DNA from: Phycisphaerales bacterium Planc_01
GTDB lineage: Bacteria; Planctomycetota; Phycisphaerae; Sedimentisphaerales; Anaerobacaceae
Assembly (NCBI GenBank): GCA_001603075.1
Contig: LVBB01000128.1
Coordinates: 62,001 to 126,000 of the forward strand
Length of the DNA: 64,000 nt
Reading direction: 5' to 3'
The notes beneath the pieces are model-generated. The model worked only from the letters and a program-made list of their open reading frames with translations, was not told where the DNA came from and made no database searches. Below, piece by piece: positions 38,078 through 41,728 of the stretch (within the stretch, counting starts at the first letter, position 1; every line of letters begins with the position of its first letter). The translations under genes were made by a program, and so were the position numbers.

Positions 38078-38623
38078 ATGGAATCGCCACAAGCCAATGT
38101 CGCCGTTGACCAACTGACGTTCAGTCTTTTTCAGAGACCTCTGCACCCCGAGCTGTTCCAGCTTTACGCCTGTCGGCAGCTCAAGACGGAGAAGTATGAG
38201 GCCCTGATCTGGGTCACCGGGTGCACCCATGTCGTGAGCGTCTTCTCGGGCGACGTGTGTCTGAGCGAGGTCGTCAGCACGCCGGGGCAACTGCTCCCGC
38301 ATCGCGGCCTGGTCGAGCGGTTCCAGTTCCGCGGCCCGCGCACCCACAAGTGTACGCTCAGTCGCGGGGTCAGCTACATGACCGATTTCCAGGTCGAAAA
38401 GATGAGCCCCAATCTCTATCGGCAGAGCTACGCCGATCTGGAGCGGTTCGCCCGCAATCGCGGCGTCTTCGTGAAGTTCCCGGAACTCGAAATGGACGGG
38501 TTGCAGCCGTTCTGCTATGTGGACTTCGAGGCGCGGCGCAGCGAATTGCACATCCACACCTTCGCGGCCTATCCCGATCAGGTCACGATGATCAAGACAC
38601 AATCGCTCTTCGATTTCCAGTAA
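38078..38623 (+). CDS. DUF2617-like protein
   Basis: This is a 181-residue soluble protein that I associate with DUF2617. Visible features are LTFSLFQRPLHPELFQLYAC near the start, WVTGCTHVVSV and a C-terminal AYPDQVTMIKTQSLFDF. No catalytic motif is evident. The ATG at 38078 is preferred because of the promoter position and a GGGG stretch upstream. In-frame ATGs at 38042 and 38051 lie at or before the predicted transcription start. It is convergent with the next gene, separated by 11 bases. Confidence 0.65.
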   Translation: MESPQANVAVDQLTFSLFQRPLHPELFQLYACRQLKTEKYEALIWVTGCTHVVSVFSGDVCLSEVVSTPGQLLPHRGLVERFQFRGPRTHKCTLSRGVSYMTDFQVEKMSPNLYRQSYADLERFARNRGVFVKFPELEMDGLQPFCYVDFEARRSELHIHTFAAYPDQVTMIKTQSLFDFQ

Positions 38624-38634
38624 GAGCGGTATCC

Positions 38635-39618
38635 TCAGACGTGCTGTAGCTCGACGTTCTGTCGCAGTACGTCGATCTTGCCCTGGATCTCCGTCGCCAT
38701 GCGGCTGTTGGGAAAGTCCCGAACGATCTGCTGGCCCACCTCCAGCGCCGTCTCCCACCGCTTGTCCGAAATCGCCATCGCAAACTGCACGCCCATGTTG
38801 TGCAGCTTCGTCTTGAACACGTCCCGCGCCGCCTCCTGAAGGGCCAGCCCCTCGTTCGGCGTCAGGTACATGTCCAGCTCCCGCAGGATCGACAGGCTGC
38901 GGTCCGTCTCCTGCTGCTGAACGGCGTCGTCCCAGGCGGCCATGAGAATCTTCTTTCGCTCCTCCTTGCTGTCGACCAGTTGCTGGCGCATGGCCCGGGC
39001 CTTTTCCGAGGCGGGATGCTCCCGAATCAACGCCTCGATCTGTACGCTGGCCTTGGCCCAGTGCGCGTTGCGAAAGTGCATGCGGATGTGCTCGATGGCC
39101 TGATCGATCCGCTCGTCTTCGGTGGCGTTGCGGTAGCTGTCCACCTGTTGGCGCAGTTCGGCCGCCAGCGCGCGGTAGCCGGAATGGACGCCGATCTCAT
39201 CGATGATCTCGTAAGCGCCTTCGAAGTCCTTCTGTTTGAGCTTCTCGAAGACGGCCTCACGCAACGACTGGCGGTCGTCATCGCGAAACGCGATCGCCTT
39301 GACCGAATCGCTGATCCGCGCGCAGTGGTTGATCTGCACCAGGTCCCGCCGGATGTCCTCCAGCGCCTTGGTCGCCTCGGCCATCTTGGCGCTGTTGTCG
39401 CGAAGCGTCTCGACGATTCCCGAGACGCGCGACAGCATCGCCAGCAGGGCCCCGAGAAAGATCAGCGAGCCCAGCAGGAACACCAGGTTGCGCAGCGTCT
39501 CGGTGTTCTCGAAGGTGCGGGTGAACAACGCCAGCAGAACGACGAATCCCAGCGCTGCGCCGATGACGGTGAAGTGCCATTTGAATTGCTGAACGTGGCT
39601 GTCTTTTTCCGAGTCCAT
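38635..39618 (-). CDS. Membrane-anchored helical-repeat protein
   Basis: This is a 327-residue protein with two N-terminal membrane segments (about 12-32 and 43-64) and a long helical cytoplasmic or periplasmic part. It begins as a coiled coil (SGIVETLRDNSAKMAEATKA) and continues in TPR-like repeats (about 130-300: FEKLKQKDFEGAYEIIDEIG, AISDKRWETALEVGQQIVRD). I recognise no named family. GGAGAAAAGG precedes the ATG and a good promoter lies about 55 bases upstream. It may be a scaffold or membrane-associated adaptor, which is a guess from architecture only. Confidence 0.7.
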   Translation of the reverse strand: MDSEKDSHVQQFKWHFTVIGAALGFVVLLALFTRTFENTETLRNLVFLLGSLIFLGALLAMLSRVSGIVETLRDNSAKMAEATKALEDIRRDLVQINHCARISDSVKAIAFRDDDRQSLREAVFEKLKQKDFEGAYEIIDEIGVHSGYRALAAELRQQVDSYRNATEDERIDQAIEHIRMHFRNAHWAKASVQIEALIREHPASEKARAMRQQLVDSKEERKKILMAAWDDAVQQQETDRSLSILRELDMYLTPNEGLALQEAARDVFKTKLHNMGVQFAMAISDKRWETALEVGQQIVRDFPNSRMATEIQGKIDVLRQNVELQHV

Positions 39619-39669
39619 GAGCCTTTTCTCCAACAGAGCAAGGAGCCTCAATTACAGCCAACCCAATCC

Positions 39670-39698
39670 AGTATACCCGTCGGCCGATCCGGGGTCAA
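39670..39698 (-). promoter_or_regulatory. Promoter of the helical-repeat membrane protein gene
   Basis: On the minus strand TTGACC (39698-39693), a 17-base spacer and TATACT (39675-39670). Predicted start near 39662, leader about 44 bases. Confidence 0.65.
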
Positions 39699-39923
39699 CC
39701 GAACAAGACGACGGGTGATCTCGATCCGACGAGGGGGCACTCGAATCGGCGCGGCAGGGGCGGTCCGATTGCAGGGCATGAATGAAACCGCTGTCGTGTG
39801 AGCCATCATGGAATTCTCCTGGGCGCAGCACTTCGTTCATGGCGATAGACGCTTATCGGGGCGGTTTTATTCTCGGGGCGTGTGGATTTGTCCGGTGCGG
39901 CGGGCTCGCGGAGCCGGGGGCGC
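39699..39923. other. Gene-free stretch with no recognised feature
   Basis: This 225-base part of the 39619-40134 gap lies between the small RNA terminator and the promoter of the helical-repeat gene. I see no gene, repeat or hairpin of note in it. Confidence 0.5.
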
Positions 39924-39956
39924 AAAAAAAGAACCGAAGCGATGAAGCCCCGGCTC
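39924..39956 (-). terminator. Intrinsic terminator of the small RNA
   Basis: On the minus strand GAGCCGGGGC, loop TTCATC, GCTTCGGTTC pair along 10 positions (four G-U wobbles) and are followed by seven T (39930-39924). This is a strong rho-independent signal with no protein gene directly before it. Confidence 0.8.
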
Positions 39957-40054
39957 TTTGGAGACGGCTTTTGCATGACCGAATATAGAACAAGGGTATG
40001 ATCTATACAGCCGTCTCAAAACCAAGATATAGAAGAAAAGAGCGCACAGCCACA
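39924..40054 (-). ncRNA. Candidate structured small RNA, about 130 nt
   Basis: An independent transcription unit with its own promoter (40088-40061) and intrinsic terminator. Inside, GAGACGGCT (40017-40009) pairs with AGCCGTCTC (39969-39961), extended by three A-U pairs across one mismatch. Within that, TATAGA (40007-40002) pairs with TCTATA (39989-39984), leaving a 12-base apical loop. A second TCTATA lies upstream (40033-40028) and could pair with the same TATAGA instead, giving two exclusive folds. The 5' part is pyrimidine-rich. I do not recognise the class. A 62-codon reading frame through it crosses the terminator and looks accidental. Confidence 0.6.
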
Positions 40055-40060
40055 TTCCCC

Positions 40061-40088
40061 ATTATACCACGTCAGCCCGTTTTGGCAA
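40061..40088 (-). promoter_or_regulatory. Promoter of the small RNA
   Basis: On the minus strand TTGCCA (40088-40083), a 16-base spacer and a perfect TATAAT (40066-40061). The predicted start is about 40054. Confidence 0.7.
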
Positions 40089-40134
40089 GGGCCCGTTGCG
40101 ACGATTCAGGTCTCTTGGGCTGTCGTGGACGGGG

Positions 40135-40470
40135 TCATTCGACGCCGGTCGGCGCGACGCAATAGATGTAGGCCAACGGCTCGGTCCCGGTGTTCTCGAC
40201 GTCGTGCAGGGTCCTCGGGGGGATGTAGGCCACCTTTCCCCGTCCCACCTCAAGGTCGGCGGCGCCCCCGATGTGGACCACGCCTTTGCCGGCCAGGAAG
40301 ACCAGCAGCTCTTCATGGTCCTTGGTGCTGTGCTGTCCGCAGGACCTGCCCGCTTCGAGGTAGACGCGGCCCGACCGCATCCCACACGTCTGGGGTCGGC
40401 CATCCAAGAGCTTCTGATACTCAGGCTTGCTCTCCAGTTCAATCGAAAACGCATTTTGTGATGATGCCAT
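40135..40470 (-). CDS. Single-domain cupin protein
   Basis: This is a 111-residue cupin. The two conserved motifs are GRSCGQHSTKDHEELLVFLA (His, His and Glu metal ligands) and the later VAYIPPRTLHDVENTG (His). A compact cytoplasmic beta-barrel of this size may bind a metal and a small ligand, and no reaction can be assigned. GGAGATC precedes the ATG and a good promoter lies about 50 bases upstream. It ends before the small RNA promoter, so the two are separate units. Confidence 0.85.
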   Translation of the reverse strand: MASSQNAFSIELESKPEYQKLLDGRPQTCGMRSGRVYLEAGRSCGQHSTKDHEELLVFLAGKGVVHIGGAADLEVGRGKVAYIPPRTLHDVENTGTEPLAYIYCVAPTGVE

Positions 40471-40516
40471 TAGATCTCCTTATGTAAAAATGACTGGAAT
40501 TCGATCTTTCGGGATG

Positions 40517-40545
40517 TTGATAGGGCATGTACGCGGATCTGTCAA
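40517..40545 (-). promoter_or_regulatory. Promoter of the cupin gene
   Basis: On the minus strand a perfect TTGACA (40545-40540), a 17-base spacer and TATCAA (40522-40517). Predicted start near 40510, leader about 40 bases. Confidence 0.65.
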
Positions 40546-40768
40546 GCGACGAGTCGGGTGTCCCTGCCCGCTGCGATGTCCGGCACGCCAGGGCCGGTGA
40601 TCCCAGGCCCGTCCGGATGGCCGATCAGAAAAAAGAGGTCGTCGTGGGTTTTTGCCTTGCGTCCGGTAGCACGAGTAGGCTATTGTTATGCGTGGTAACA
40701 CGAAATGGTGTTGCGTATGCGCCGTTTCGGGGGGCTTGAGGGCTGCGTAGAAACGTGGAGGATGGAAC

Positions 40769-41728
40769 ATGAGAAACGCACTGTTGGCAGGTGTGCTGAT
40801 CGGGTCGGTCCTGGCCGGTGCGCTGTGGGCGCAGGGCACGGTCGCCGAGGTCACACACAGAGAATTTCAGGCGGTCAACGCCGCAGGGGAACTGACCTAC
40901 GCCGCTACGGAGATGGTCACGCTCGAAGGGATCGTGCTGCACAATCCCGGCGACATGCTCGACCCGACACCCGACGACGGCATGACGCAGATGTACAACC
41001 TGGCCGCCCAGTGGCAGCTCTTCTTCCAGGGCGAGGGCGACGACGTTGCCGGCACCGCGATCTTTATGGGCCAGATGTACAACAATCTGCCCTGGGTCTC
41101 GCCGGACGGCGGCTACTCGAACGAGGAGTGGGTCGCCGAACTGGCACGGCTCAACGCGGCCCAGTTCAGCGTCGGCGACCGCATTCGCGTCACCGGCTAC
41201 TTCCTGTCGTACAAGGGCAAGAACAACATCAACGAGCAACACAGCAACGATCCGCAGCGCGACTTCACCATCGAGCTGGTCGAGAAGGGCGTCGGGCTTG
41301 CCAAGCCGGAGCGGGTGACGCTCGACGACCTCAAAGACGACCTGGACCAGTTCATCTTCGATCCCGCGCGGGAAGTCGGCTGTGAACGGTATCAGGCTCG
41401 GCTGGTCAAGATCGAGGGTGTCAGTGTGGTGGACCCGGCCGGCTGGGGCCCGCATGGCACGTTGACGATCACCGACGGCGTCAAGACGTTCCCCGTCAAG
41501 CTCGGCCGCGGCAACGGAATTTACGCCGGGTCGTACAATCTGAACGAAACGTTCGATATCATCGGCATCCTCAACCAGGAGGGCGCGAACCTCGTCGATG
41601 GCTATGAGCTATATGTGGTCAACTACGATGGCAACGGTCAGGTGCTGGCCGCGCCGGAGCATCGCTTGGCCGATCGGACCGACGAGGTCGTGGAAGAGTC
41701 CATCGAGGAAGAGCCGGTGACAGAATAA
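40769..41728 (+). CDS. Secreted protein of unknown function at head of metal-transport operon
   Basis: This is a 319-residue exported protein (signal peptide MRNALLAGVLIGSVLAGALW ending AQG). The mature part looks like two OB-fold-like beta modules: TEMVTLEGIVLHNPGDMLD ... VGDRIRVTGYFLSYKGKNN, then YQARLVKIEGVSVVDPAGWG with FDIIGILNQEGANLVDGYEL. This resembles OB-fold/DUF5689-like ligand-binding domains, but I cannot name a family. A Glu-rich tail ends it. GGAGGAT precedes the ATG. A pseudopilin gene and a Znu-type transporter follow on the same strand with short gaps. Confidence 0.65.
   Translation: MRNALLAGVLIGSVLAGALWAQGTVAEVTHREFQAVNAAGELTYAATEMVTLEGIVLHNPGDMLDPTPDDGMTQMYNLAAQWQLFFQGEGDDVAGTAIFMGQMYNNLPWVSPDGGYSNEEWVAELARLNAAQFSVGDRIRVTGYFLSYKGKNNINEQHSNDPQRDFTIELVEKGVGLAKPERVTLDDLKDDLDQFIFDPAREVGCERYQARLVKIEGVSVVDPAGWGPHGTLTITDGVKTFPVKLGRGNGIYAGSYNLNETFDIIGILNQEGANLVDGYELYVVNYDGNGQVLAAPEHRLADRTDEVVEESIEEEPVTE

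Follow-up and report, generated by a model that had tools for sequence, protein, structure and literature searches.

Between two protein-coding genes of a Sedimentisphaerales bacterium lies a gap whose minus strand reads like a very small transcription unit, and the question it raises is whether this unit is an RNA gene in its own right and, if so, what its RNA would do. The window studied here is the whole 64,000-nt stretch of DNA in which the gap lies. The original prediction had proposed an independent RNA of about 130 nt, framed by a promoter and an intrinsic terminator and able to adopt two competing folds, which called to mind no known RNA class and is not simply the leader of the next gene. 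Comparison with related genomes allows the parts of this proposal to be taken separately.

Elements of the locus

The promoter, the 9-bp outer stem (P1) and the terminator hairpin with its seven T were all found as the original prediction had described them, and Table 1 gives their positions together with the other elements of the unit. The combination of -35 and -10 boxes is the top-scoring promoter match within 38500-41000. The predicted fold of the RNA has an energy of -50.9 kcal/mol, versus -37.4 +/- 3.9 kcal/mol in dinucleotide shuffles (z = -3.5; 0/200 shuffles). The terminator at 39959-39924 was missing from the output of a simple terminator scan, probably because stem and T tract overlap; it is supported both by the predicted fold and by the covariation described below. 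Two covariance models of the family, R1 and R2, match the window over 39925-40046.

In many members of the family (for example at loci L016, L024 and L078) the T run is directly followed by a short sequence resembling TATGCGC or ATTGCGC, whose position in the window is 39924-39921.

Table 1. Positions of the RNA gene, its elements and its neighbours in the window.
Feature	Position	Strand	Basis or remark
Promoter TTGCCA, 16-nt spacer, TATAAT, with a preceding TG	40061..40088	(-)	consensus match 11/12
-35 box TTGCCA	40088-40083	(-)	
-10 box TATAAT	40066-40061	(-)	
RNA gene	39924..40054	(-)	start estimated at about 7 nt past the -10 box
5' pyrimidine tract CTCTTTTCTTCT, proposed contact site	40031..40042	(-)	conserved; predicted unpaired
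Second conserved unpaired stretch ATATCTTGGTT (TCTTGGTTT)	40020..40030	(-)	alignments; strongest in own family
Outer stem P1, 5' arm GAGACGGCT	40009..40017	(-)	covariation
Outer stem P1, 3' arm AGCCGTCTC	39961..39969	(-)	covariation
Loop motif ATACCCTTGTTCTATATT; family consensus AUA-NN-UUUG then UAUAUU	39982..39999	(-)	alignments
Inner stem TATAGA/TCTATA	39984..40007 (arms 40007-40002 and 39989-39984)	(-)	predicted; close relatives only
Extra upstream TCTATA	~40033-40028	(-)	
Intrinsic terminator	39924..39959 (hairpin 39959-39928; run of seven T 39930-39924)	(-)	fold and covariation
Upstream neighbour, cupin-domain protein	40135..40470	(-)	Pfam PF07883, E = 2e-12; context, outside the RNA
Own promoter of the 338-aa gene, TTGACC-17-TATACT	39698-39670	(-)	
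Downstream neighbour, gene for a 338-aa protein	from ~39619	(-)	

Two covarying helices and an exposed tail

The architecture of the family is simple: one conserved hairpin, P1, which holds a loop of about 45-50 nt, followed by the terminator hairpin. Across the aligned members 96.1% of cells are paired in P1, where 7 of the 9 pairs have changed on both sides; for the terminator hairpin the corresponding values are 94.7% and 9 of 11 pairs. Together the two helices keep 94.6% of cells paired, versus 83.6% when shuffled, and show both-side changes in 17 of 21 pairs; they contain 160 double-changed cells, versus 43 in shuffles, and 0 of 500 shuffles came as high. The signal is lost when the partners are slid by 1-3 columns. 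P1 can be fully rewritten and still pair, as CUGAAGC/GCUUCAG in one family and as GCUAAAGCG/CGCUUUAGC in another. An unbiased covariation scan of 100 members in two alignments returned P1 and the terminator as the sole covarying helices, and found neither a pseudoknot nor an additional covarying helix linking the 5' tract and the loop. By eye, some members could form a hairpin at the 5' end that includes the tract, but its predicted folds are weak and inconsistent.

The original prediction had also placed an inner stem within P1, and had suggested that an upstream TCTATA competes with the inner TCTATA for TATAGA, which would make the RNA a two-state switch. All three sequences exist in the window, where the inner stem is predicted to form with a pair probability of about 0.9. 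Across the family, however, it pairs in 52.9% of cells versus 50.4% in shuffles. The stem shifts its register from one member to another, and in the nearest relatives, which repeatedly have UAGA/UCUA, the aligned columns may give too low a figure for it. Outside the genus and a handful of close relatives the stem is not conserved, and the check for compensatory changes that had been proposed for both stems found them in the outer one and not in the inner one. For the upstream TCTATA and TATAGA the predicted probability of pairing is about 0, with a penalty of about 9.4 kcal/mol if this pairing is imposed. Since the inner stem is confined to close relatives and the competing fold is predicted to be practically unpopulated, the two-fold switch is unsupported and seems extremely improbable.

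Among the unpaired stretches, conservation is highest in the 5' pyrimidine tract CUCUUUUCUUCU, whose information content over the 100 members is near-maximal and whose mean predicted unpaired probability in them is about 0.7-0.88. The loop motif AUA-NN-UUUG...UAUAUU is conserved 3' of this tract. The promoter is conserved as well: at 72 of 100 homologous loci it matches the consensus in at least 10 of 12 positions, versus about 4.7% of shuffled upstream regions, and its commonest form, TTGCAA-16-TATAAT, is found exactly at 30 of the 100.

Occurrence across Sedimentisphaerales

When 99 relatives were searched by plain DNA comparison, 17 genomes gave clear homologues, in which the whole unit is kept from the promoter through the T run, and these homologues were the basis of the first covariance model. 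With that model the RNA was found in 55 of 89 genomes of its own family. The second model, R2, was built from 58 members; the E-values of the covariance models are approximate, owing to a shortened calibration. In the order Sedimentisphaerales, R2 matches 106 of 161 genomes (51 of the 66 good ones), where the non-matching genomes are partly incomplete, the strict filters of large searches may miss diverged copies and absence is proved for one genome alone (G005, discussed below). The matches span 6 families and 61 of 84 genera, and include complete chromosomes. Each matching genome has one copy, almost without exception. The RNAs of the family are about 115-140 nt long; over the modelled stretch homologues have 114-139 nt, and their median identity to the window member is about 0.59. 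Several distant members (families f4 and part of f7) have low scores and less clear promoters.

Two genomes carry more than one copy. G035 has two full, closely similar copies (L070 and L085) on two contigs, each with a promoter and a terminator. The intact copy of G117 is accompanied, about 1.7 kb away, by a second, degenerate copy (contig C254:2779-2920; L100, 501-642) that has no recognisable promoter and no recognisable terminator.

When 392 Planctomycetota genomes were sampled, the matches were members of the order plus two marginal ones. One of these two was inspected and contains neither the pyrimidine tract nor P1, and no convincing family member beyond Sedimentisphaerales was found among the 392. 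A scan of genome and viral collections with a motif of 20 or more bases gave chance matches in other phyla, none of which exceeds about 33 bits with the model, versus 86-127 for complete copies. By sequence comparison, the window RNA belongs to a conserved family of RNAs that appears to have been kept vertically across Sedimentisphaerales.

A gene independent of its neighbours

The order of promoter, structure, terminator and gene fits an attenuated leader, in which P1 and the terminator would form a cis-acting riboswitch or attenuator of the downstream gene, and the alternative stems described by the original prediction pointed the same way. The downstream gene, however, is not conserved: near this genus it encodes the 338-aa protein, in another set a protein that is pilin-like and carries an N-methylation motif, and in a further one QueA, with a small convergent gene in between; several groups have a gene on the opposite strand as their nearest downstream neighbour. 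Nor does any conserved pairing in the 100-member scan rival P1 or the terminator. Upstream, a cupin homologue precedes the RNA in 23 loci, including every genome of the genus, so the upstream synteny is partly retained by descent.

A sister species speaks most directly to the relation between the RNA and its neighbours. The genome G005, which belongs to the same genus and is 97% complete, keeps both flanking genes, for the cupin-domain and the 338-aa protein, together with the promoter of the latter, and it is missing the RNA promoter, the 5' tract, the 5' arm of P1 and most of the loop. What is left is a relic of the 3' arm of P1 and the terminator (contig C4, L305 ~1834-1960), and the covariance models found no second RNA copy in G005. 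The deletion is a natural loss of the RNA. The lineage can thus do without it, and the 338-aa gene, whose own promoter survives there, is independent of the RNA; from this second promoter the original prediction had concluded that the RNA is not simply the gene's leader.

The riboswitch or attenuator reading failed on conserved upstream position and on conserved mutually exclusive helices. Because of the synteny and the G005 deletion it is largely refuted, and we regard it as very unlikely.

The RNA's own upstream promoter, its changing neighbours and its loss in G005 argue instead for a stand-alone gene, and the window locus is almost certainly a conserved one. From a promoter, stem and terminator that are conserved across the order while the neighbours vary, we infer that an RNA of about 130 nt is transcribed from this strand, in agreement with the independent transcript first proposed. 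The locus has the features by which an sRNA gene is recognised: its own promoter and an intrinsic terminator, no conserved coding frame and no fixed downstream gene. Frames that start with ATG do occur in the transcript, and a short one might be thought to encode a peptide that is conserved at the protein level. The longest closed frames, however, have a median of 11 aa and scattered start positions, and indels between members shift the frame, which leaves a coding function next to impossible.

A small reading frame of about 65-90 aa is conserved just downstream of the RNA, convergent with it on the opposite strand, at several loci (L046, L048, L055, L067, L069, L071, L072, L075 and L077-L080). 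One example was compared with Pfam and gave no match.

How the RNA may act

The combination of a strong promoter, an exposed conserved tail, one hairpin and a terminator is the architecture of a trans-acting sRNA. In such a scheme, transcription would run for about 130 nt from the housekeeping-type promoter to the intrinsic terminator. The resulting non-coding RNA would act in trans, using the exposed 5' pyrimidine tract and the loop motif as contact sites, which would pair, independently of Hfq, with purine-rich stretches in several mRNAs. Action in trans, base pairing and mRNA regulation are all suggested by the architecture; a trans-acting sRNA that base pairs through its pyrimidine tract is our preferred reading, which we hold at about even odds. 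Hfq (Pfam PF17209) was found in 0 of 31 Sedimentisphaerales genomes, with controls such as E. coli and B. subtilis positive, so sRNA regulation in these bacteria would need another chaperone or none.

Possible targets were sought in two ways. In the complete genome G016, the duplex energy of 1,891 start regions with the 5' core was no better than with permuted cores (mean -12.97 versus -13.03 +/- 0.46 kcal/mol); the window's own genome (G000) contains no full complement of the 13-nt tract apart from the RNA gene itself, and across 89 genomes the non-self matches to the tract complement are seemingly no commoner than those to a reversed control pattern, with short seeds of 6-8 nt lying below the reach of both searches.

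The same results would fit an RNA that binds protein. Here the RNA would scaffold or sponge an RNA-binding protein which recognises the tract and the AUA-UUUG-UAUAUU motif, with P1 serving to present the loop. The start regions give no target signal and there is no long antisense match, and the long unpaired tail and the loop are near-invariant although the families share only about 42-60% identity with the window member. Against this, no candidate protein was identified, and pyrimidine tails are typical of base-pairing sRNAs too. We consider a protein-binding role possible but rather doubtful, while noting that a protein partner accounts for the conservation nearly as well as base pairing does. 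A more specific version, in which the RNA is abundant, housekeeping-like and particular to the order, and uses its pyrimidine tail and loop motif to assemble a dedicated ribonucleoprotein, seems unlikely; if it were true, the family would be a new functional class and not another antisense sRNA.

A review of Rfam-based annotations counts 8 distinct sRNAs in the whole PVC group, versus 345 in Proteobacteria (PMC9029176). An RNA that occurs across an order whose sampled members have no Hfq may offer a testable entry to RNA-based control in these little-studied bacteria, and the natural deletion in G005 is a ready-made comparison.

Comparison with known RNAs

The first impression that the RNA fits no known class agrees with Rfam 15, in which no family reaches its gathering threshold at the locus or in members from other families; the sole above-threshold match is a neighbouring tRNA. 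Weak matches fall far short of their thresholds. The best of them is to STnc240 (RF02074), with 29.7 bits versus a cut-off of 55, and it covers mainly the terminator. What the two RNAs have in common is a terminator hairpin, its T run and a short segment ahead of it, but only the 3' end aligns, and the 5' tract and P1 are not in the STnc240 model.

A single-copy, order-wide RNA of 100-200 nt with a strong promoter might also be a known housekeeping RNA that has diverged, for example 6S RNA (RF00013), which it resembles in length, copy number and order-wide conservation. The same genome, however, has a separate 6S RNA above the Rfam cut-off (G000:C41:97812-97997, 58.3 bits), and 6S RNA is a long bulged hairpin, versus a short hairpin with a large loop here. 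Because of this separate locus, and with no match at the one studied, identity with 6S RNA was rejected; given also the Rfam scores of the window and of the other families, a diverged housekeeping class is highly improbable.

Weinberg et al. 2010 (PMC2864571) presented candidate RNAs from comparative genomics, and Rhodopirellula-1 is the sole candidate in their main text with Planctomycetes among its taxa, with no Rfam number visible there. The present RNA is like the candidates of that text in being a covarying intergenic structure without known function. Literature searches found no published description of this RNA, and the family appears to be undescribed so far.

Trans-acting sRNAs that work independently of Hfq through pyrimidine-rich unpaired seeds are known, for example RsaE/RoxS of Firmicutes. 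The RNA described here differs from them in its phylum, in having no Rfam sequence match and in its U/C-rich seed CUCUUUUCUUCU, where RsaE/RoxS carry a C-rich UCCC motif. It resembles them in being a short intergenic gene with its own promoter and an intrinsic terminator, and in the conserved unpaired pyrimidine stretch that each keeps, in single copy, throughout its clade.
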